Source: Cordylochernes scorpioides (lineage: Eukaryota; Arthropoda; Arachnida; Pseudoscorpiones; Chernetidae). Taken from it: a stretch of DNA of 64,000 bases. The stretch lies in assembly GCA_030710605.1 (NCBI GenBank), contig CP092880.1:11387639-11451638 (forward strand), given 5' to 3'. The notes beneath the pieces are model-generated. The model worked only from the letters and a program-made list of their open reading frames with translations. It was not told the origin of the DNA and did no database searches. The translations under genes and the position numbers were made by a program. Below are positions 6,373-60,540 of the stretch, piece after piece; position 1 is the first letter of the stretch; the number at the start of each line of letters is the position of its first letter.

Positions 6373-8255
6373 GAAGCGTCTTCGGATATCACAATCATAC
6401 TTCGGCGAATTTAACGCCAAAAGTTCAATTCGGGGATCACCTGTCCAGGATAACAAAAGTCAGCAGGTTGAGGACATGCTAACCGACCTCGACCTTACAC
6501 CGTTAAATAACGGAGAGAACAGCTATCTATCTAAGTCCACAGGCACAGAATCCGCAATAGACATCACAGCGATAAATTACAACATCGCACCCACAACACA
6601 ATGGAAAATCCTGAGAGGTGCAATCAGTGACCACAGACCAATTTTAACAACCCTAAACTTCAAAATTGAGAATGTCCATTAGAATAAAAGAACATGGAAC
6701 TTTAGGAAAGCCGACTTGAAAAAAATTCACAGAAAAGCTTGAAGAACTGTGCAACGAAAAATTGAATTACAGAACGCTTGACAAAAGCTTGGAAAAATTC
6801 ACTTCGAACATTTAAAAAGCTGCAAAAGAGCATCGATAACTAGAGGTAGACGTAAAGACCTGTGGATACCTTACTGGAAGGACCACAACATCGAGGCAAT
6901 GATTTCAGAGAAAGAGACAATATCAATGGACTTCTTAAAACAAATAAAACAGAAAGGAACTCATTGAAATTATTCACAAAATATAACAATAAATTTGGAT
7001 ATTCAAACAAGAAAAATGGCATAATTCTGCGAAAAAAATGGATCCAAGAAAGGACAGCCAACACTGGAATATAATTAGAGTGTTAGAGAACAATCAAAAC
7101 CAACACCAATCCTCCAATACTCTAACCGATATGAATAGAACAGCGAGAACGAGAACAAACAGATGGCTGACATAATTGCTGAATATCTTTCAAGCACTTC
7201 CATACTCAACTATACGAATGAAGACAGGACTCTAAAAATAATATAAACCAGTTAGTTAAACAAGCAAGAAACTTCCATCAACAAGATATTTTCTCGAGAG
7301 ACTTCACACTGAATGAGCTAAACTCATCAATAAAAAAATCCAAGAGGTCACCAAGAGATAATCTAATCTTTGGTCAAATGATTAAACACTTTGAAGTCAA
7401 AGCTAATAATCAACTCCTACGAATACTGAACATTTCATGGCAAACTGGTAAACTACCAAAGAATTGGAAGATATCAATTATAGTGCCAATACTGAAGCCA
7501 AACAAAGATGCCAAGGAATACAAGAACTATCGGCCAATTGCTCTCGCCAGCATACTTTGTAAAATTCCAGAACAAATTATCCACTCTAGGCTCATAGTCT
7601 GGCTCACAAAAAATAATAAAATAAACCTCTACCAAACGGCCTATAGATCCCAGCACTGTACAACTGATCAACTGTTCTACTTCTGTCAATCAATAATAGA
7701 TTCTTTCCGGGAAAAACCGCCAAAGAAGACCACGGCTATATTCCTTGATATGACCTCAGCTTTTGATCGAGTATGGAGGGAGAAATTACGTGAAAAGCTG
7801 CACAACATCGGAGTAAGAGGAAAAACCTTAATCTGGATTGCAGACTTCTTAAGGGGAAGAAGGTTAAAGGTTTGGGTCAATGGAGAATTTTCCAAGGAAA
7901 GAAGAACATGGGCTGGTGTACCTCAGGGATCTGTGCTCAGTCCTCTACTCTATCTGCTATATATTAACGACATACATCCTTACCTCACTGAAGACACAAA
8001 GGTTGCCTGTTATGCAGATGATAAAGCCATATGGCACACAAGTAGCAGCATAGAAAAATCGTAAAAGATACTGAAGACATCAATGAGAGGACTGGAGAAG
8101 TGGGCAATGGAACTCCAAATGACCATAAACCCAATAAAACCAAACCTATGCGTCTTCTCCACTCCCAGGGAAAAAGGCATAAATATAACAACAAAATAAG
8201 CATAAACAAACCAATAATTGATAAAATTAGAAATCCATAATACCTAGGTGTGATA
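6373..8255 (+). pseudogene. LINE A, copy 1: endonuclease end, linker and reverse transcriptase
   Basis: Non-LTR retrotransposon ORF2, 5'-truncated by a deletion. 6371-6682 holds the last part of an APE endonuclease ending in AISDHRPIL (the catalytic SDH motif). A frameshifted linker follows, then a reverse transcriptase in one 228-codon frame (7378-8064): KNYRPIAL, FLDMTSAFDRVW, GVPQGSVLSPLLY and the active site CYADDKAIW at about 8010-8036. A stop closes it at 8064. The enzyme would nick chromosomal DNA and copy its RNA there. RNase H and a CCHC tail lie far downstream at 14542-15363, split off by later insertions. Type: Jockey/I superfamily. Confidence 0.85.
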
Positions 8256-16849: not shown

Positions 16850-17250
16850 ATATATGTAAAAAGTACATCAGGATATGGCTCTTATATTTTTAATATCAAC
16901 ACCTGATCTTTTGTTTATTTTCCTATTGTTTATTTCATGTGTTAAGAGTATATACGCAAATTTGGTCTTAAATACCCATATATTGGTTTCTCAATAAGCC
17001 TCTGGGACCAAAAATATTTTTGGTCACAGTGGTACAGCCTGCTCCACACTGACGAGTGCCAACAACGTGGAACGCGTTCGTGGATGGCTTTTCTTGATTT
17101 ATCAAGAAATTGGGTTGGTCAAATATCAGGGAACAGGTTAAATCAATGTTTAGTTGATTTCTGTTCCACTAGATGGCGCACTGCTATCTAAAAGGCAGAT
17201 GTGCTCCTGGTCAGGATATGCCTCTTTTATTTTTAATATCAGCACCTGAC
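16850..17250 (+). mobile_element. ribozyme-bearing repeat (TCAGGATATGCC family), decayed hammerhead
   Basis: It contains the blocks seen in the copies at 22925-23525: GGTACAGCCT, a hammerhead region, TTGATTTATCAAGAAATTGG, GAACAGGTTAAATCAA, GATGGCGC and a 3' TCAGGATATGCC. The hammerhead part (17044-17085) has CTGACGA and the stem I pair CCAC/GTGG, but GAAA has become GGAA, so it is predicted inactive. No protein coding. Probably non-autonomous, related to Penelope-like retroelements, which are known to carry hammerheads. Confidence 0.6.
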
Positions 17251-19559: not shown

Positions 19560-19785
19560 TCTTAAATACCATTTCTAAGATTCCACTCTTCAGTGTAACA
19601 TATATAAGCAGAATCGTCTAATACAGTATTAGAGCTCTAAAGAAGCGGTCTGGTGGATTAAATTAGCGAAACCGCTGGGAGAGTTCACCACTGATGAGCC
19701 AAGCCCTTCCAATAATTTTTTCATCACAGTAAGGACAGTAGAAGTTTGATGTATGTATAAAAGAAACATTCGTGTCTACATGTTT
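19560..19785 (+). mobile_element. hammerhead-permuted repeat (family P), oldest copy
   Basis: Divergent member of family P. A TATA-like TATATAAG (about 19601) lies about 40 bp before the ribozyme-like core, which is followed by the family tail (CAGTAAGGACAGTAGAAG). No coding. This copy helps most because it differs from the others in ways that preserve or improve pairing. Confidence 0.65.
19645..19702 (+). ncRNA. strand-permuted hammerhead-like core, GTC variant
   Basis: Three strands in order. First GCGGTC then TGGTGGAT: half of stem III, the cleavage triplet GUC, and half of stem I. Then TTAGC GAAA CCGC: half of stem II, the conserved GAAA, and the other half of stem III. Then GTTCACCA CTGATGA GCCAA: the other half of stem I, the conserved CUGAUGA, and the other half of stem II. 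Stem I pairs over 7-8 bp, stem III over 5, stem II over 5 with one A/C mismatch. Every core base of a hammerhead is present, but the substrate strand is upstream instead of between GAAA and CTGATGA. Self-cleavage is not shown by sequence alone. Confidence 0.55.
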
Positions 19786-19899: not shown

Positions 19900-20165
19900 T
19901 TATATGTAATTCTGATGTCCTTAAAGCTTATGTCCATAGTTCATCTAAAATATCCATTCCAAGAACCTAGCATCAGTATCATCATAAAAGGAAGTTCCAA
20001 AAATGCAATATAACAGCGGTATGGTAGATTAAACTGACGAAACCGCTGTGAGGGTTCACCACTGATGAGCCAGGCCCTCCCTTTAATTTTTCCATTGCAT
20101 TAAGGGCAGTATAAATTGTTTAATTTTTTAAAAGAATCATACGCGTCTATAATAGTTTCGAATTA
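19900..20165 (+). mobile_element. family P repeat, copy 2
   Basis: Holds the leader GCTTATGTCCATAG, TAAAAGGAAGTTCC, the permuted hammerhead core, the tail AATTTTTCCAT...TAAGGGCAGT and part of the 3' block ATACGCGTCTATAATAG. No coding. Confidence 0.7.
20016..20073 (+). ncRNA. strand-permuted hammerhead-like core
   Basis: Same layout: GCGGTA TGGTAGAT, CTGAC GAAA CCGC, GTTCACCA CTGATGA GCCAG. Stem II has one mismatch (A opposite C). Cleavage triplet GUA. Confidence 0.5.
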
Positions 20166-23032: not shown

Positions 23033-23072
23033 CCACGCTGACGAGCGTTAATAGCGCGAAACGCGTTCGTGG
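23033..23072 (+). ncRNA. hammerhead ribozyme, minimal type I
   Basis: Order is canonical: CCACG, CTGACGA, stem II GCGTT-AAT-AGCGC (5 bp, one G/U), GAAA, a tiny stem III (AC, GC loop, GU) and the cleavage triplet GUU, then CGTGG, which pairs perfectly with CCACG. Position 7 of the core may be any base, so CUGACGA is allowed. The 2-bp stem III is typical of hammerheads in Penelope-like retroelements. All catalytic residues are present. Confidence 0.8.
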
Positions 23073-23440
23073 ATGGCTTTTCTTGATTTATCAAGAAATT
23101 GGGTTGGCCAAATATCAGGGAACAGGTTAAATCAATGAATAGTTGATTTCTGTTCCACCAGATAGCGCTCTGCCATCTAAAAAGCACATGTGCTTCTGGT
23201 CAGGATATTCCCTTTTTATTTTTAATATCAACACCTCACCTTATTATTTTTTTCTATTATATATTTTTTTCATATATATAGACATATATTAAAAACAAAG
23301 TAGGCATATCCTGACCAGGAGCACATGTGCTTTTAGAAGGCAGAGCGCCATCTGGTGGAACAGAAATCAACTAAACATTGGTTTAGCCTGTTTCCTGATA
23401 TTTTGCCAACCCAAATTCTTTATAAATCAAGAAAAGCCAT

Positions 23441-23480
23441 CCACGAACGCGCTTCGCGCTGTTGGCGTTCGTCAGCGTGG
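23441..23480 (-). ncRNA. degenerate hammerhead, minimal type I
   Basis: CCACG CTGACGA ACGCC-AACA-GCGC GAAG CGCGTT CGTGG. Stem I is perfect, but the first stem II pair is broken and GAAA has become GAAG, so it is predicted weak or dead. Confidence 0.65.
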
Positions 23481-23525
23481 AGTAGGCTGTACCACTGGGA
23501 CCAAAAAATAATTTTGGTCCCAGTG

Positions 23526-28480: not shown

Positions 28481-28794
28481 TGGTGAACCTTACCATCGAT
28501 TTCACCAATTTAATTCACCCTGATCGCTACAACGATTGTAATAAAGAAATGGAACTATTTAAATTTGATGCTTTCTTTATTTCACAAATACAACGTTTAC
28601 TACTGTTTATTCATGCAATGAAAAATATAAAGAGGGCCTTGCTCATCAGTGGTGAACCCTTCCAGCGGTTTCGCCAGTTTAATCATTCATATCTCTATTA
28701 AATTATATAGATGTATTCTATACTGTATATACCCATCACATGGCAGAAATTCTTGGTTAGCGAACTTAATTATGGACATAAGCTTAGAAGATAA
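28481..28794 (-). repeat. family P fragments
   Basis: On the minus strand, 28638-28690 has CTGGC GAAA CCGC and GTTCACCA CTGATGA GCAAG, without the upstream substrate strand. An older piece at about 28481-28515 shows a diverged version. The remainder is AT-rich. Confidence 0.5.
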
Positions 28795-33462: not shown

Positions 33463-34437
33463 GCTACATTCAATTATAATGTCGAATACAAGTAAAACAT
33501 CTTAGCGGAAAATTCGCCATTACTTGTTCAAATAACATTTTGGGAACCAATATATATGGCTACATTCAATTATAATGTCGAATACAAGTGAAACATATTA
33601 GCGGAAAAATCGCCATTACTTGTTCAAATAACATTTTGGGAACCAATATATATGGCTACATTCAATTATAATGTCGAATACAAGTAAAACATCTTAGCGG
33701 AAAATTCGCCATTACTTGTTCAAATAACATTTTGGGAACCAATATATATGGCTACATTCAATTATAATGTCGAATACAAGTAAAACATCTTAGCGGAAAA
33801 TTCGCCATTACTTGTTCAAATAACATTTTGGGAACCAATATATATGGCTACATTCAATATAATGTCGAATACAAGTAAAACATCTTAGCGGAAAATTCGC
33901 CATTACTTGTTCAAATAACATTTTGGGAACCAATATAAATGGCTACATTCAATTATAATGTCGAATACAAGTGAAACATCTTAGCGGAAATTTCGCCATT
34001 ACTTGTTCAAATAACATTTTGGGAACCAATATATATGGCTACATTCAATTATAATGTCGAATACAAGTAAAACATCTTAGCGGAAAATTCGCCATTACTT
34101 GTTCAAATAACAATTTGGGAACCAATATATATGGCTACATTCAATTATAATGTCGAATACAAGTGAAACATCTTAGCGGAAAATTCGCCATTACTTGTTC
34201 AAATAACATTTTGGGAACCAATATATATGGCTACATTCAATTATAATGTCGAATACAAGTAAAACATCTTAGCGGAAAATTCGCCATTACTTGTTCAAAT
34301 AACATTTTGGGAACCAATATATATGGCTACATTCAATTATAATGTCGAATACAAGTAAAACATCTTAGCGGAAAATTCGCCATTACTTGTTCAAATAACA
34401 TTTTGGGAACCAATATATATGGCTACATTCAATTATG
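33463..34437 (+). repeat. 96-bp minisatellite, about 10 units
   Basis: Head-to-tail units beginning GCTACATTCAATTATAATG and containing CATCTTAGCGGAAAATTCG and TTTTGGGAACCAATATATAT. Units are almost identical (AAAACATC or GAAACATC, occasional single changes), which implies recent amplification or gene conversion. Confidence 0.95.
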
Positions 34438-35158
34438 AATGAATTGTTAGTATAGAAAGATATATTGTATATTGAGTAAAATTAATCGGACCTCGTCAGG
34501 GAAAAGTAACTGTATTAAAACATTTTTATTGTTCTCTAGCTTTCAGGCACGTACGCCCTTCTACAGGACATGGTATGATGATATAAAATATACTTTTTAC
34601 CTGGAGGCCTGATATATTTCCCTCTATATTCTATATTTCGACTTAGAGCGCTATTTCCCTCTAGGGACACTTGCACTTTAAAGATAAACAAAAATTTTGA
34701 AAGAAAAGAAAGAAAGACAATTTAAATATGTACAAGAATTAGTATGCAAGTTAGTTAGATGAAAAGATAAAAATATATATATATCAACACAATTGATATA
34801 TGTACAAAGGGTTGGTATGCAAATTTAGTTAAATGAAATTAAATTTTAAAGTATTGTGTGTATTCGAGAAAAGCAATTTACAGAGTAAAAAAAAAATTAA
34901 GGAATATTTTAGAATAAAAATATGCAAGATATTAGAGAATTATTCAATTTAAAAAATACTAAAAAGAGTTGAGTTTAAATAAAAGCGTTCCAATGGAATT
35001 TAGTAGTTTTTTTTTTATAAAATTCAAAATAAATCTGCAAAATGAGTTGAATTTTATATATTTGTCTTCGTTGTTATTAGATCAAACGGGTTTGATACAT
35101 TTAGTCCATTGTTTACTCTATATTGATGCAAGGAATTAATTGAATTAAAATATATATA
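34438..35158. other. AT-rich with one hammerhead-derived hairpin
   Basis: On the minus strand 34541-34566 reads CTGTAGA, hairpin, GAAAGCTAGAG, the motif also seen at 21646 and 29016. No coding. Confidence 0.4.
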
Positions 35159-41366: not shown

Positions 41367-43270
41367 GAGCAAAACTGATATCTCCAGTAATGCTACCGCG
41401 TCCGGGGTAACCGCCGCGTCAGGAGCTGCAGCTCGAGCTCATGATGAGAAATCTACTACGAGGACACAATTCAATCTACTACAACTCAATATAAATGGTA
41501 CCCAGAGGAAAATAAAGAGCTGACTTGTCTTCTCTGTGACAACAATGTACATATTAATTGTCCTCAGGAGACAAAATTGAATCAGAATCTGAGATTCAAT
41601 ATCAAAGATTATACAACACTACGAAAGGACAGACCGGGAAAATTCGGAGGAGAACTTGCCGTTTTGATTAAAACTCTAGAAACCAAATTTAAGGAAATCG
41701 CCTATAATCAGAGTAAGCCTAGAGAAAGCACGACAGAAGCTCAGGCAATAGAAATCTATCTTACAGATAAAACAATTCCAATCATAAATGTTTATCACCA
41801 CGATAATACTAGCATCAATACAGGCCTGATTGAGAAATTAAGTGAAGCGTCTTCGGATATCGCAATCATACTTGGTGATTTTAACGCCGAAAGACCAACT
41901 TGGGGATCACCTGTCCAGGATAACAAAGGTCAGCAGGTTGAGGACATGCTAACCGACCTCGACCTTACACCGTTAAATAACGAAAAGAACACCTATCTAT
42001 CCAAGTCCACAGGCACAGAATCCGCAATAGACATCACAGCGATAAATTACAACATCGCACCCACAACACAATGGAAAATTCTGAAAAGTGCAATCAGTGA
42101 CCACAGACCAATTTTAACAACCCTAAAATTCAAAATTGAGAATTTTTACAACAGAATAAAAGAACACTGGAAAAAAATTCACAGAAAAGCTTGAAGAACT
42201 GTGCAACGAAGAATTAAATCACAGAACGATTGACAAAAAATTGGAAAAATTCTATTCGAACATATCCAGAGCTGCAAAGGTATCGATACCTAGAGGTAGA
42301 CGTCAAGACCAGTGAATACTTTACTGGAAGGACCACAATATCGAGGCAATGATTGCAGAGATACACAATATCAATGAACTTCTTAAAACAAATAAATCAG
42401 AGGATATCATAAAGGAACTCATTGAAATTAGTTACAAAATGAACAAGAAATTTGGATATTCACACAAGAGAGAGAAAAATGGGCAGAATTCTGCGAAAAA
42501 AATGGGTCCAAAAAAGGAAAGCCATCACTGGAATATAATTAGTGTTATAAAACACTCAAAACCAACACTAATCCTCTAATACTCTAACCGATATGAATAG
42601 CGAGAACGAACAAACAGATGGCTGAAATAATTGCTGAATATCTTTCAAGCACTTCCAGACTCAGCTATACGAATGAAGGCAGGACTCTAAAAAATAATGC
42701 AAACAGGTTAGTTAAACAAGCAAGAAATTACCATCAACAAGATATTTACTCGAGAGACTTCACACTGAATGAGCTAAACTCATCAATAGTAAAGTTAAAT
42801 CCAAGAGGTCACCAGGAGATGATCTAATCTTTGGTCAAATGATTAAACACTTTGGAGACAAAGCTAAAAATCAACTCCTACGAATACTGAACATTTCATG
42901 GCAAACTGGTAAACTACCAAAGAATTGTAAGATATCAATTATAGTGCCAATACTGAAACCAAACAAATATGCCAAGGAATGCAAGAACTATCGGCCAATT
43001 GCTCTTACCAGCATACTTTGTAAAATAACAGAATGAATTATCCACTCTAGGTTCATAGTCTGGCTCACTAACAATAATAAAATAAACTTATACCAAACTG
43101 CCTAAAGGTCCAGACACTGTACAACTGATAAACTGTTCTACATCTGTCAATCAATAATATATTTCTAGGAAAAACCGCCAAAGAAGACAACGGCCGTATT
43201 ACTGGATATGACCTTAGCTTTTGGTCGAGTGTAGAAATATTTGAAAGGCTGCACAACATAGGAGTAAAAA
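41367..43270 (+). pseudogene. LINE A, copy 2: endonuclease and first part of RT
   Basis: Begins straight after the target duplication. The endonuclease opens at about 41475 with LLQLNINGTQRKIK, loses frame at a TGA, continues in the 205-codon frame 41577-42194 with PQETKLN (41567 region), IIINVYH-type motif, AIILGDFNAERPTWGSP (catalytic Asp/Asn) and SAISDHRPIL. A broken linker (42195-42830) follows. RT starts at 42839: KISIIVPILKPNK, KNYRPIALTSILCKI, then decays. Here the element lacks any ORF1, so it was 5'-truncated on arrival. Confidence 0.85.
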
Positions 43271-43681
43271 GAATTTAAAAAGAATATTACGCCTCTTAAA
43301 TAGTTTTATAATTTGATAACAGATGGCGCTCTAGTACATCGTAACATTATTGTTCTAATAAAAGACACAATTTGATATTTGCGGAAGAGCGATTGCTCGA
43401 AGCATATTATATATTTATAATTATATTTAATTCTGCTGTCCTAAAAGCTTATGTCCATAGTTCTTCTAAAATACCCATTCCAAGAGTCTTACAACAGTCA
43501 CCTATAAAAGGAAGTTCCAAAAATGCAATATAACAGCGGTATGGTAGATTAAACTGGCGAAACCGCTGGGAGGGTTCACCACTGATGAGCCAGGCCCTCC
43601 CTTTAATTTTTCCATCGCAGTAAGGACAGTAGAAATTATTTTATTTTAAAAAGAATATTACGCCTCTTAAATAGTTTTATA
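43271..43681 (+). mobile_element. family P repeat inserted in LINE A, with target duplication
   Basis: The unit starts and ends with the same block, AAAAAGAATATTACGCCTC (43277 and 43651), 374 bp apart, so it is slightly more than one unit of a tandem. ATAGGAGTAA stands on both sides (43257 and 43682) where LINE A copy 1 has a single CATCGGAGTAAGAGG, giving a target duplication of about 12 bp. Inside: TATAAAAGG (43503), the permuted hammerhead core and family tail. Confidence 0.75.
43536..43593 (+). ncRNA. strand-permuted hammerhead-like core
   Basis: GCGGTA TGGTAGAT, CTGGC GAAA CCGC, GTTCACCA CTGATGA GCCAG. Stem III 5 bp and stem II 5 bp are perfect; stem I is 4 bp perfect, extendable to 8 with one mismatch. 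Cleavage triplet GUA. TATAAAAG lies 33 bp upstream, so a Pol II transcript would begin near the first strand. Confidence 0.6.
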
Positions 43682-43682
43682 A

Positions 43683-43846
43683 TAGGAGTAAGAGGAAAAA
43701 CCATAATCTGGATTGCAGACTTCTTAAGTGGAAGAAGGATAAAGGTTCGGGTCAATGGAACATTTTCCAAGGACAGAAGAACATGGGCTGGTGTACGTAC
43801 CTCAGGGATCTGTGCTCAGTCCTCTACTCTTCTCGCTATATTTAAC
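43683..43846 (+). pseudogene. LINE A, copy 2: RT middle
   Basis: Continues RT (GVRGKTIIWIADFLSGRR, TWAGV..PQGSVLSPLL) with a small duplication (GTACGTAC) that shifts frame. Interrupted at 43847 by the gypsy LTR. Confidence 0.8.
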
Positions 43847-54384: not shown

Positions 54385-54600
54385 ATAAAACTATTTTAAA
54401 GCCGTAATATTCTTTTTAAAATAAAACAATTTCTGCTGTCCTTACTGCGATGGAAAAATTAAAGGGAGGGCCTGGCTCATCAGTGGTGAACCCTCCCAGC
54501 GGTTTCGCCAGTTTAATCTACCATACCGCTGTTATATTGCATTTTTGGAACTTCCTTTTATAGGTGACTGTTGTAAGACTCTTGGAATGGGTATTTTAGA
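54385..54600 (-). mobile_element. family P repeat, copy 4, facing copy 5
   Basis: Complete core and leader on the minus strand. Its leader end (ACTGTTGTAAGACTC) abuts the leader of copy 5, so 54400-54780 is a large inverted repeat. Confidence 0.7.
54472..54529 (-). ncRNA. strand-permuted hammerhead-like core
   Basis: Identical in all three strands to the core at 43536-43593. Confidence 0.6.
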
Positions 54601-55002
54601 ACAGTCACCTATAAAAGGAAGTTCCAAAAATGCAATATAACAGCGGTATGGTAGATTAAACTGGCGAAACCGCTGGGAGGGTTCACCACTGATGAGCCAG
54701 GCCCTCCCTTTAATTTTTCCATCGCAGTAAGGACAGCAGAAATTGTTTTATTTTAAAAGAATATTACGCCTCTAAAATAGTTTTATAATTTGATAACAGA
54801 TGGCGCTCTAGTACATCGTAACATTATTGTTCTAATAAAAGACACAATTTGATATTTGCGGAAGAGCGATTGCTCGAAGCATATTATATATTTATAATTA
54901 TATTTAATTCTGCTGTCCTAAAAGCTTATGTCCATAGTTCTTCTAAAATACCCATTCCAAGAGTCTTACAACAGTCACCTATAAAAGGAAGTTCCAAAAA
55001 CG
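54601..55002 (+). mobile_element. family P repeat, copy 5, with tandem start of a second unit
   Basis: ACAGTCACCTATAAAAGG occurs at 54602 and again at 54972, 370 bp apart, so this is a full unit followed by the start of the next. TATA box, core, tail, GATGGCGCTCTAGTAC block and leader are all present. The second unit is broken at AAGTTCCAAAAA by the captured segment. Confidence 0.75.
54643..54700 (+). ncRNA. strand-permuted hammerhead-like core
   Basis: Same three strands as at 43536-43593; TATAAAAG lies about 32 bp upstream. Confidence 0.6.
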
Positions 55003-55288
55003 CATGCACTTCCTTCGGGAGGTCGAAAGGTAAAAGCCAGACCTTTGATCTCTGATGATTTCATATTTTTGAAACCTTCAGTGCCGGAGTTGTGCTCGGC
55101 GCTACCTTGGTTCCCTCAAAACGGCGTGCACTCCTCTCCCCCGGGGCGCCCACGGCCTTGCCGTCGCCTCTCCAGCTCTCTCCTTGGCCCTCCTCTGCGG
55201 CGGGTTGCTCGGAGACACCTAACTATGAGTTTTGCCTTAAAAAGCTTACCGAAGCTTGTAGAAGGCTCAACAATAATAGTATATATTC
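55003..55288 (+). pseudogene. captured GC-rich segment with start codon, copy 2
   Basis: Aligns with 53705-54010: TAAAAGCCAGACC, CTCTCCCCCGGGGCGCCC, GGAGACACCTAACT, then ATG at about 55226 reading MSFALKSLPKLVEG. The frame is kept between copies with mainly single residue changes (D to F, C to S). It sits inside a family P unit, between CCAAAAA and AAAAATGCAATATAACAG, which are contiguous in other copies. Confidence 0.5.
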
Positions 55289-55500
55289 AAAAAATGCAAT
55301 ATAACAGCGGTATGGTAGATTAAACTGGCGAAACCGCTGGGATGGTTCACCACTGATGAGCCAGGCCCTCCCTTTAATTTTTCCATCGCAGTAAGGACAG
55401 CAGAAATTGTTTTATTTTAAAAAGAATATTACGCCTTTAAAATAGTTTTATAATTTGATAACAGATGGCGCTCTAGTACATTGTAACATAATTTTTAAAT
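55289..55500 (+). mobile_element. family P repeat, copy 6
   Basis: Resumes at AAAAATGCAATATAACAG after the captured segment and runs through core and tail to GATGGCGCTCTAGTAC. Confidence 0.7.
55307..55364 (+). ncRNA. strand-permuted hammerhead-like core
   Basis: Same as at 43536, except GGGATGG in place of GGGAGGG in the linker, outside the three stems. Confidence 0.6.
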
Positions 55501-60302: not shown

Positions 60303-60540
60303 AAGAAAAAGGCATCTCCTTATCGTGCAACTGAAAGTTGCTGATGGCTGGCGCCATCTATCGGAATAAATATCAACTATTCTCGTTGATTTTTAATTAT
60401 TCCAGAATTGGCCAAATACCCATTCTTGATTAATCAAGAAAAGCTAACCACGGACGCGTTTCGGGCTGTTGGCCCTCATCAGCGTGGTGCAAGCTGTACC
60501 TCAACGACCAAAATATTGGTCATTAAGGCATCCTGAAAAA
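60303..60540. mobile_element. family E repeat with canonical hammerhead on the minus strand
   Basis: AAAAAGGCATCTCCTTATCG, GTTGCTGATGGCTGG, CGGAATAAATATCAACT, TTAATTATTCCAGAATTGG, CTTGATTAATCAAGAAAAGC, then the hammerhead and TGCAAGCTGTACCTCAACG. A second partial copy follows 337 bp later. No coding. Confidence 0.7.
60448..60487 (-). ncRNA. hammerhead ribozyme, minimal type I
   Basis: CCACG, CTGATGA, stem II GGGC-CAACA-GCCC (4 bp perfect), GAAA, stem III AC-GC-GU, cleavage triplet GUC, CGTGG. Stem I (CCACG/CGTGG) is perfect over 5 bp. All core positions are canonical and the triplet is the most favoured one. Confidence 0.85.

Follow-up and report, generated by a model that had tools for sequence, protein, structure and literature searches.

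A probable type-SGC hammerhead ribozyme with crossed stems in a retrozyme-like tandem repeat of the pseudoscorpion Cordylochernes scorpioides

In a 64,000-nucleotide stretch of the Cordylochernes scorpioides genome (the window), every part of a hammerhead ribozyme lies in the order substrate strand, GAAA strand, CUGAUGA strand (blocks S, G and C). Does this stretch encode a ribozyme, and if so, what carries it? We conclude that a type-SGC hammerhead, working or at least functional in the past, is very likely what the core at 43534-43601 represents. Judged from its sequence, this hammerhead, with stems I to III crossed and a stem IV added, probably sits in a non-coding, retrozyme-like mobile repeat whose unit is about 370 nt long and may include a TATA promoter.

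Direct reading of the sequence and a descriptor scan both found the named hammerhead segments where the original prediction had placed them and in the S-G-C order that it gave, CAGCGGU-A-UGGU...CUGGC-GAA-ACCGCUG-GGAGGG-UUC-ACCA-CUGAUGA-GCCAG-G-CCCUCCC at 43534-43601 (Table 1). This copy has the full set of hammerhead core residues. Stem III (CAGCGGU/ACCGCUG) has 7 bp. A fourth helix, stem IV (GGGAGGG/CCCUCCC), flanks block C on both sides and begins directly after stem III, with G43568 common to its 5' strand and the end of stem III. The S-G-C strand order would make stems I, II and III cross, and stem IV would join the other sides of stems I and II, holding the crossed core. An extension of stem I to 8 bp and a cleavage triplet of GUA or GUC had also been named; the long stem I (8-9 bp) and GUC are found in subfamily B, and the copy at hand, which belongs to subfamily A, has the triplet GUA and an uninterrupted stem I of only 4 bp. 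Other subfamilies, too, have TATA-like strings ahead of block S, as judged by eye.

Table 1. Positions, within the window, of the predicted hammerhead, the insertion that carries it and further copies of the repeat
Feature	Position	Strand	Basis or remark
Block S	43534..43549	+	Sequence read; scan
Stem III 5' strand CAGCGGU (block S)	43534-43540	+	Sequence read
H17 = A (block S)	43541	+	Sequence read
Predicted cleavage site	Between 43541 and 43542	+	Block S
Stem I 3' strand UGGU (block S)	43542-43545; weakly extendable to 43549	+	Sequence read
Block G	43554..43568	+	Sequence read; outer stem II pair C-G/U-A covariation
Stem II 5' strand CUGGC (block G)	43554-43558	+	Sequence read
G12-A13-A14 (block G)	43559-43561	+	GAAA = 43559-43562
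Stem III 3' strand ACCGCUG (block G)	43562-43568	+	Sequence read
Stem IV 5' strand GGGAGGG	43568..43574	+	Sequence read; in subfamily D, both sides changed (G-C to A-U)
Block C	43578..43593	+	Sequence read; in subfamily D, both sides of a stem I pair changed (G-C to A-U)
Stem I 5' strand ACCA (block C)	43578-43581	+	Sequence read
CUGAUGA (block C)	43582-43588	+	Sequence read
Stem II 3' strand GCCAG (block C)	43589-43593	+	Sequence read
Stem IV 3' strand CCCUCCC	43595..43601	+	Sequence read; comparison with type-SGC as described in PMC10085705
TATAAAA	43503..43509	+	Possible internal promoter of the unit, about 30 nt ahead of block S
Terminal direct repeat, first copy	43274..43312	+	39 nt, identical
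Terminal direct repeat, second copy	43645..43683	+	371 nt downstream
Target duplication, 9-10 nt, (A)TAGGAGTAA, left copy	43257..43265 (approximate)	+	Right copy just after 43683
Subfamily B copy	19630..19746	+	GUC; stem II UUAGC/GCCAA, one mismatch
Subfamily A copy	19988..20117	+	Tandem with copy at 19630..19746
Degenerate copy of repeat	28597..28709	-
Subfamily A copy, intact S-G-C core	54428..54557	-	Head to head with 54615..54744
Subfamily A copy, intact S-G-C core	54615..54744	+
Start of second head-to-tail unit after 54615..54744 copy	54750-55004
Subfamily A copy, intact S-G-C core	55286..55408	+

Is such a strand order new? It had been called unfamiliar, and this claim falls: the type-SGC non-circular permutation and its fourth helix were reported from metatranscriptomes by Eckert et al. 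2023 (PMC10085705), and such ribozymes, which have the same four helices, cleave themselves in vitro as described there. According to the same account, 583 type-SGC ribozymes were predicted, none of them in the genome of a known organism; the only such genomic case among the RNAs of that study is one candidate type-GCS sequence in a bacterium. HRIMA-1 and type-SGC ribozymes, as portrayed in that paper, share with our repeat the substrate-GAAA-CUGANGA order, the crossed stems I-III and a short link between stems I and II, and in both systems the fourth helix bridges the other sides of stems I and II and nearly abuts stem III (the gap being 0-44 nt in type-SGC). The stem I-II link is 8 nt in subfamily A and 4 nt in subfamily B (stem I of 8 bp), whereas in the type-SGC RNAs presented it is typically 3. 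The likeness compared here is one of strand order and helices. The settings differ as well: the published type-SGC ribozymes come from metatranscriptomes, whereas here tens of thousands of DNA copies lie in an animal genome, within a retrozyme-like repeat. A search of the literature in open-licence papers found no pseudoscorpion hammerhead, and found the type-SGC hammerhead ribozyme in one paper only.

Other hammerheads differ from the repeat in connectivity. Classical types I, II and III (Rfam clan CL00010) have the same core residues and stems I-III, but within one unit of the repeat their natural cyclic strand order is reversed, the stems cross and Rfam models find no match, either at the gathering threshold or at E values up to 1. 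The pistol-resembling hammerhead (PMC11300833) also contains a pseudoknot; compared by its published description, its helices have pistol connectivity, and the passages compared make no mention of a permuted strand order. Of the original interpretation as a whole, the pseudoknotted core is supported by the complete core residues, by a fourth helix as in type-SGC and by compensatory changes between subfamilies, and the novelty of the order is not supported; the interpretation had missed stem IV, the 370-nt tandem unit and the scale of the repeat.

How often would such a core arise by accident? The descriptor scan covered all six block orders on both strands and required CUGANGA, GAAA, U-H and at least 4 bp in each stem. 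It found four S-G-C cores in the window, namely the copy at 43534 and those with block C at 54689 (+), 55353 (+) and 54483 (-); these are one repeat family and not independent matches. Sixty dinucleotide-preserving shuffles of the window, searched on both strands, gave 2 S-G-C matches in total (about 0.03 per window). Over all six orders the same shuffles gave 10 matches (S-G-C 2, G-C-S 4, C-S-G 1, S-C-G 3), and type I (C-G-S) matches were absent from the 60 shuffled windows. The window contains 19 copies of CTGATGA where 7.3 would be expected, and 10 of these 19 fall within matches of the hammerhead repeat.

Besides the four S-G-C cores, the scan of the window returned two ordinary type I cores. 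The one at 60433-60498 on the minus strand has the C-G-S order and a minimal stem III. It matches the Rfam model Hammerhead_HH9 with an E value of 1.5e-4 in a 401-base search, at 26.5 bits, below the gathering score of 52, and a 95% identical relative lies at 220-439 of locus L048. The second, with block C at 23038 (+), reads CUGACGA and carries a stem II hairpin of the GCG/CGC type; its relatives (window 16959-17161 and 23363-23504, and loci L036, L046 and L034) form a separate repeat family. Also in the window (33463-34441) is a tandem repeat with a 96-bp unit, present in about ten copies that are 97% alike.

The repeat itself is abundant. Genome-wide counts were made in the C. scorpioides genome (2.62 Gb, 24 contigs), where the exact 15-nt core TTCACCACTGATGAG occurs 88,870 times and its reverse reading 0 times. 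The complete 67-nt core of subfamily B is present in 10,069 identical copies. An unselected sample of 20 stretches of 10 kb, taken at two fixed places on each of contigs C1-C10, contained 3 S-G-C cores and 30 profile matches of the repeat; 19 of these matches reach from block S to block C. Hence, most genomic copies are fragmentary or decayed. Among the unselected copies that span S to C in the window and the random stretches, 13 of 25 keep 11 of 11 scored core residues.

Subfamily A combines the triplet GUA with a stem II of CUGGC/GCCAG. Subfamily B has the canonical GUC, a stem II of UUGGC/GCCAA and an 8-bp stem I, UGGUGGAU/GUUCACCA; the scan counts 9 bp by including a G-U pair, which would compete with stem IV. 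Subfamily D has GUC, UAG/CUA in stem I and AGAGGG/CCCUCU in stem IV. The core elements CUGANGA, GAAA, U16.1 and H17 are kept in the cores of all three, and from the sequences the predicted ribozyme is likely to work today in A, B and D.

Not every subfamily is intact. Some have multiplied without block S (L002, L017, L019, L024, L027), others, at the copies examined, without block G (L001, L006, L016, L018, L023), and copies with a mismatch in each stem have multiplied too (L023 2541, L006 2551). Hence, the ribozyme is not needed by every lineage. Intact copies may have helped these subfamilies to move; otherwise the repeat must have a second way of spreading. The derived subfamilies that lost a block are likely to be dead remnants; block C and its surroundings are still conserved in those that lost S or G. 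In L001, L057 and their relatives, stem II reads ATGG/CCAT instead of CTGG/CCAG, and block G is lost in most of the copies retrieved.

Do the proposed stems change as paired strands would? Compensatory changes across copies, whose absence was to count against the ribozyme, are present between subfamilies: among A, B and D there is one double change each in stems I, II and IV. Five substitutions in the 68-nt core separate A from B, and these comprise a compensatory stem II pair (C-G to U-A), base 17 of the triplet, one change by which stem I gains a pair and one that falls outside the counted stems. Seven substitutions and one deletion separate B from D; they include compensatory pairs in stem I and in stem IV (G-C to A-U in each), and the deletion removes the fourth stem I pair in D. 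Under a random-substitution model that ignores mutation bias, at least one compensatory pair among 5 substitutions arose in 4.1% of trials and at least two among 7 in 0.16%. When stems I, II, III and IV and the pair at column 12 are counted, substituted paired positions changed with their partner or created a pair in 2 of 2 cases from A to B and in 4 of 5 from B to D.

For an alignment we kept 61 of 80 distinct copies, those in which S, G and C could be aligned, and left out the 19 in which a block is missing or scrambled. The selection is biased towards the structure, and parts of block C were fixed by the patterns with which many copies had been retrieved. The covariation set consisted of 50 distinct cores (51 less L073, which has a long A insertion). 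In the crossed structure 85.9% of cells are paired; in slid versions the share is 31-51%. Cells changed on both sides numbered 46 in the 50 cores, against 15.4 (sd 6.6) after shuffling, with 0 of 500 shuffles as high, and the score of the crossed structure was 0.176 against 0.130 for shuffled cores (0/500) and 0.134 for the structure slid by +1. Neither the pairs with two-sided change (7 against 6.2 shuffled; 208/500) nor the further pair types (23 against 23.6; 362/500) showed an excess in these 50 cores. Hence, the signal comes from a few subfamily-level events, about three, repeated by related copies. The unpaired columns 35-46 and 9-66 score as well as true pairs because D-specific changes are linked. 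Stem III varies little (C-G to U-A in 3 of 50, A-U in 2 of 50). RNAalifold, which allows no crossing, gave the 50 copies a nested consensus of -1.6 kcal/mol with 5 pairs, 0 of them covarying.

Genome-wide counts bear on single pairs. When all other positions of the motif are kept constant, the outer pair of stem II is C..G in 20,025 copies, U..A in 21,572, C..A in 674 and U..G in 580, so that 41,597 of the 42,851 copies counted are Watson-Crick (C-G or U-A). A..U occurs in 66 copies against 179 for A..G; by a rough estimate this third pair type exceeds two independent changes, a point to which we give little weight, A..A, C..U and U..U being uncounted. Variants on the C side of stem I pair 2 number 15,254 in the genome. 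Sixteen of 20 retrieved are C-to-U changes, and 8 of these 16 carry a compensating A in block S (L055, L056, L059, L060, L064, L066, L067, L070); the others have a G there (G-U) or an unreadable block S. At the neighbouring stem I position (the second inner pair, 2.3) there are only 3,541 variants, and the 20 retrieved show no compensation, which is the pattern that decay after insertion should leave.

The crossed fold has competitors in local hairpins of about -23 to -28 kcal/mol. A rod-like circular fold of the unit was considered and set aside, being no more stable than 60 shuffles (z -0.81, -1.33). An exact 20-mer of the core occurs 0 times in viral contigs and in 2 contigs of GTDB; the latter have no block S or G nearby, are by estimate about what chance gives for 20 bases and were discarded. 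Possible resemblances to a snoRNA C box, a box A/B promoter and 5S were judged by eye and not retained.

What carries the core? The insertion in the window, at about 43265-43683, is slightly over one 371-nt unit. Set against a related empty site (7744-7968; near 7808-7816), it has a 9-10-nt target duplication with one mismatch, as seen in the one insertion examined, the ends of which are approximate. Units follow one another head to tail at 367-378 nt. Among the matches listed on contig C1, same-strand neighbours less than 1 kb apart are spaced 368 or 367 nt in 15 of 20 subfamily D pairs (2 others lie at 378 nt); in subfamily B, 14 of 16 pairs have a spacing of 372 nt. Arrays among the matches listed reach about 14 units, and L048 has two units of 373 nt. 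The repeat thus shares with retrozymes a short, non-coding unit that is repeated head to tail and carries a single hammerhead. A small conserved hairpin, GAAGAGC-loop-GCTCGAAGC, lies in mid-unit at window 43378-43406 and in L020, L029 and L048 (by eye), and has a symmetric GAA/GAA internal loop.

Animal retrozymes, as characterised by Cervera and de la Pena 2020 (PMC7229834), are tandem repeats with units of about 300 nt (150-450 bp) and type I hammerheads. Like our repeat, the non-LTR retrozymes in that account have a small, non-coding unit of low G+C content with one hammerhead each, and range from head-to-tail fragments to long arrays. They differ in having the C-G-S order, whereas the pseudoscorpion repeat, analysed here as DNA, has S-G-C and frequent head-to-head arms.

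A retrozyme-like life cycle driven by the core is the best-supported reading of the tandem unit. Tandem copies would be transcribed, possibly from the unit's own TATA promoter just upstream of block S. Each transcribed unit would then cut itself after GUA or GUC, the unit-length RNA would be ligated into a circle of about 370 nt, and the reverse transcriptase of another retroelement would copy the RNA circle into tandem DNA at new sites. We further infer that transcription starts inside the unit and reverse transcription at both sides of the target. More tentatively, the repeat may be a retrozyme of a new make, which forms 370-nt circles by means of a triply crossed, non-circularly permuted hammerhead, not a type I hammerhead, and in which two-sided primed reverse transcription leaves outward [-]n[+]m arrays.

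Perhaps the core was once a type-SGC hammerhead, is now dead and is carried by a DNA element, foldback- or MITE-like with inverted arms, that a transposase spreads? Such an element would suit the inverted arms of 267-392 bp and 97-99.6% identity in L029 (267-bp arms) and L031 (a palindromic copy of 392 bp), and the success of subfamilies without block S or G. It would also suit the orientation of close opposite-strand neighbours, which are nearly all head to head: among the matches listed on C1, less than 1 kb apart, 15 of 15 for the stem I C-side variants and 9 of 9 for stem II U..A, and 5 of 6 among the 15-mer matches listed, which share copies with the other lists and include few minus-strand matches in the later part. 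It is opposed by head-to-tail arrays in which at least 10 units follow at a fixed spacing (368 or 372 nt), by insertion ends that fall in different phases of the unit, and by compensatory changes between subfamilies of thousands of copies each, which need past selection on structure. We consider this explanation unlikely.

More doubtful still is action between units or in trans, in which blocks from successive tandem units come together as hammerheads without crossing, closing loops of about 330 nt, or one RNA pairs with another. Tandem blocks do offer S1-C1-G2 or G1-S2-C2, which are ordinary cyclic orders, but many copies consist of a single unit, a local type-SGC layout is what stem IV and the short linkers fit, and loops of about 330 nt should close less readily than the local fold. 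That the strings are conserved for some other reason (a promoter, DNA binding, another RNA fold) and resemble a hammerhead by chance is very improbable, for while block C is conserved where S or G is lost, pointing to another constraint or plain recent descent, and covariation events are few, against it stand the shuffle control, the unchanged core residues of A, B and D amid mostly compensated paired substitutions, and the GUC and long stem I of subfamily B.

We return to the retrozyme-like reading and what it means. The S-G-C order, until now known almost only from anonymous environmental RNA, here has a known animal host. For the questions of what permuted hammerheads do and who carries them, the present case offers a named animal, cultivable in principle, with thousands of identical copies. 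Because intact copies lie beside broken subfamilies and type I hammerheads in the same window, cleavage, circles, spread and the origin of the permutation become directly testable. If the repeat is a retrozyme of a new make, the rise and loss of non-circular permutations could be read from its subfamilies, which lost or kept whole blocks, and circles encoded in DNA could account for some of the type-SGC RNAs that metatranscriptomes contain without a host.
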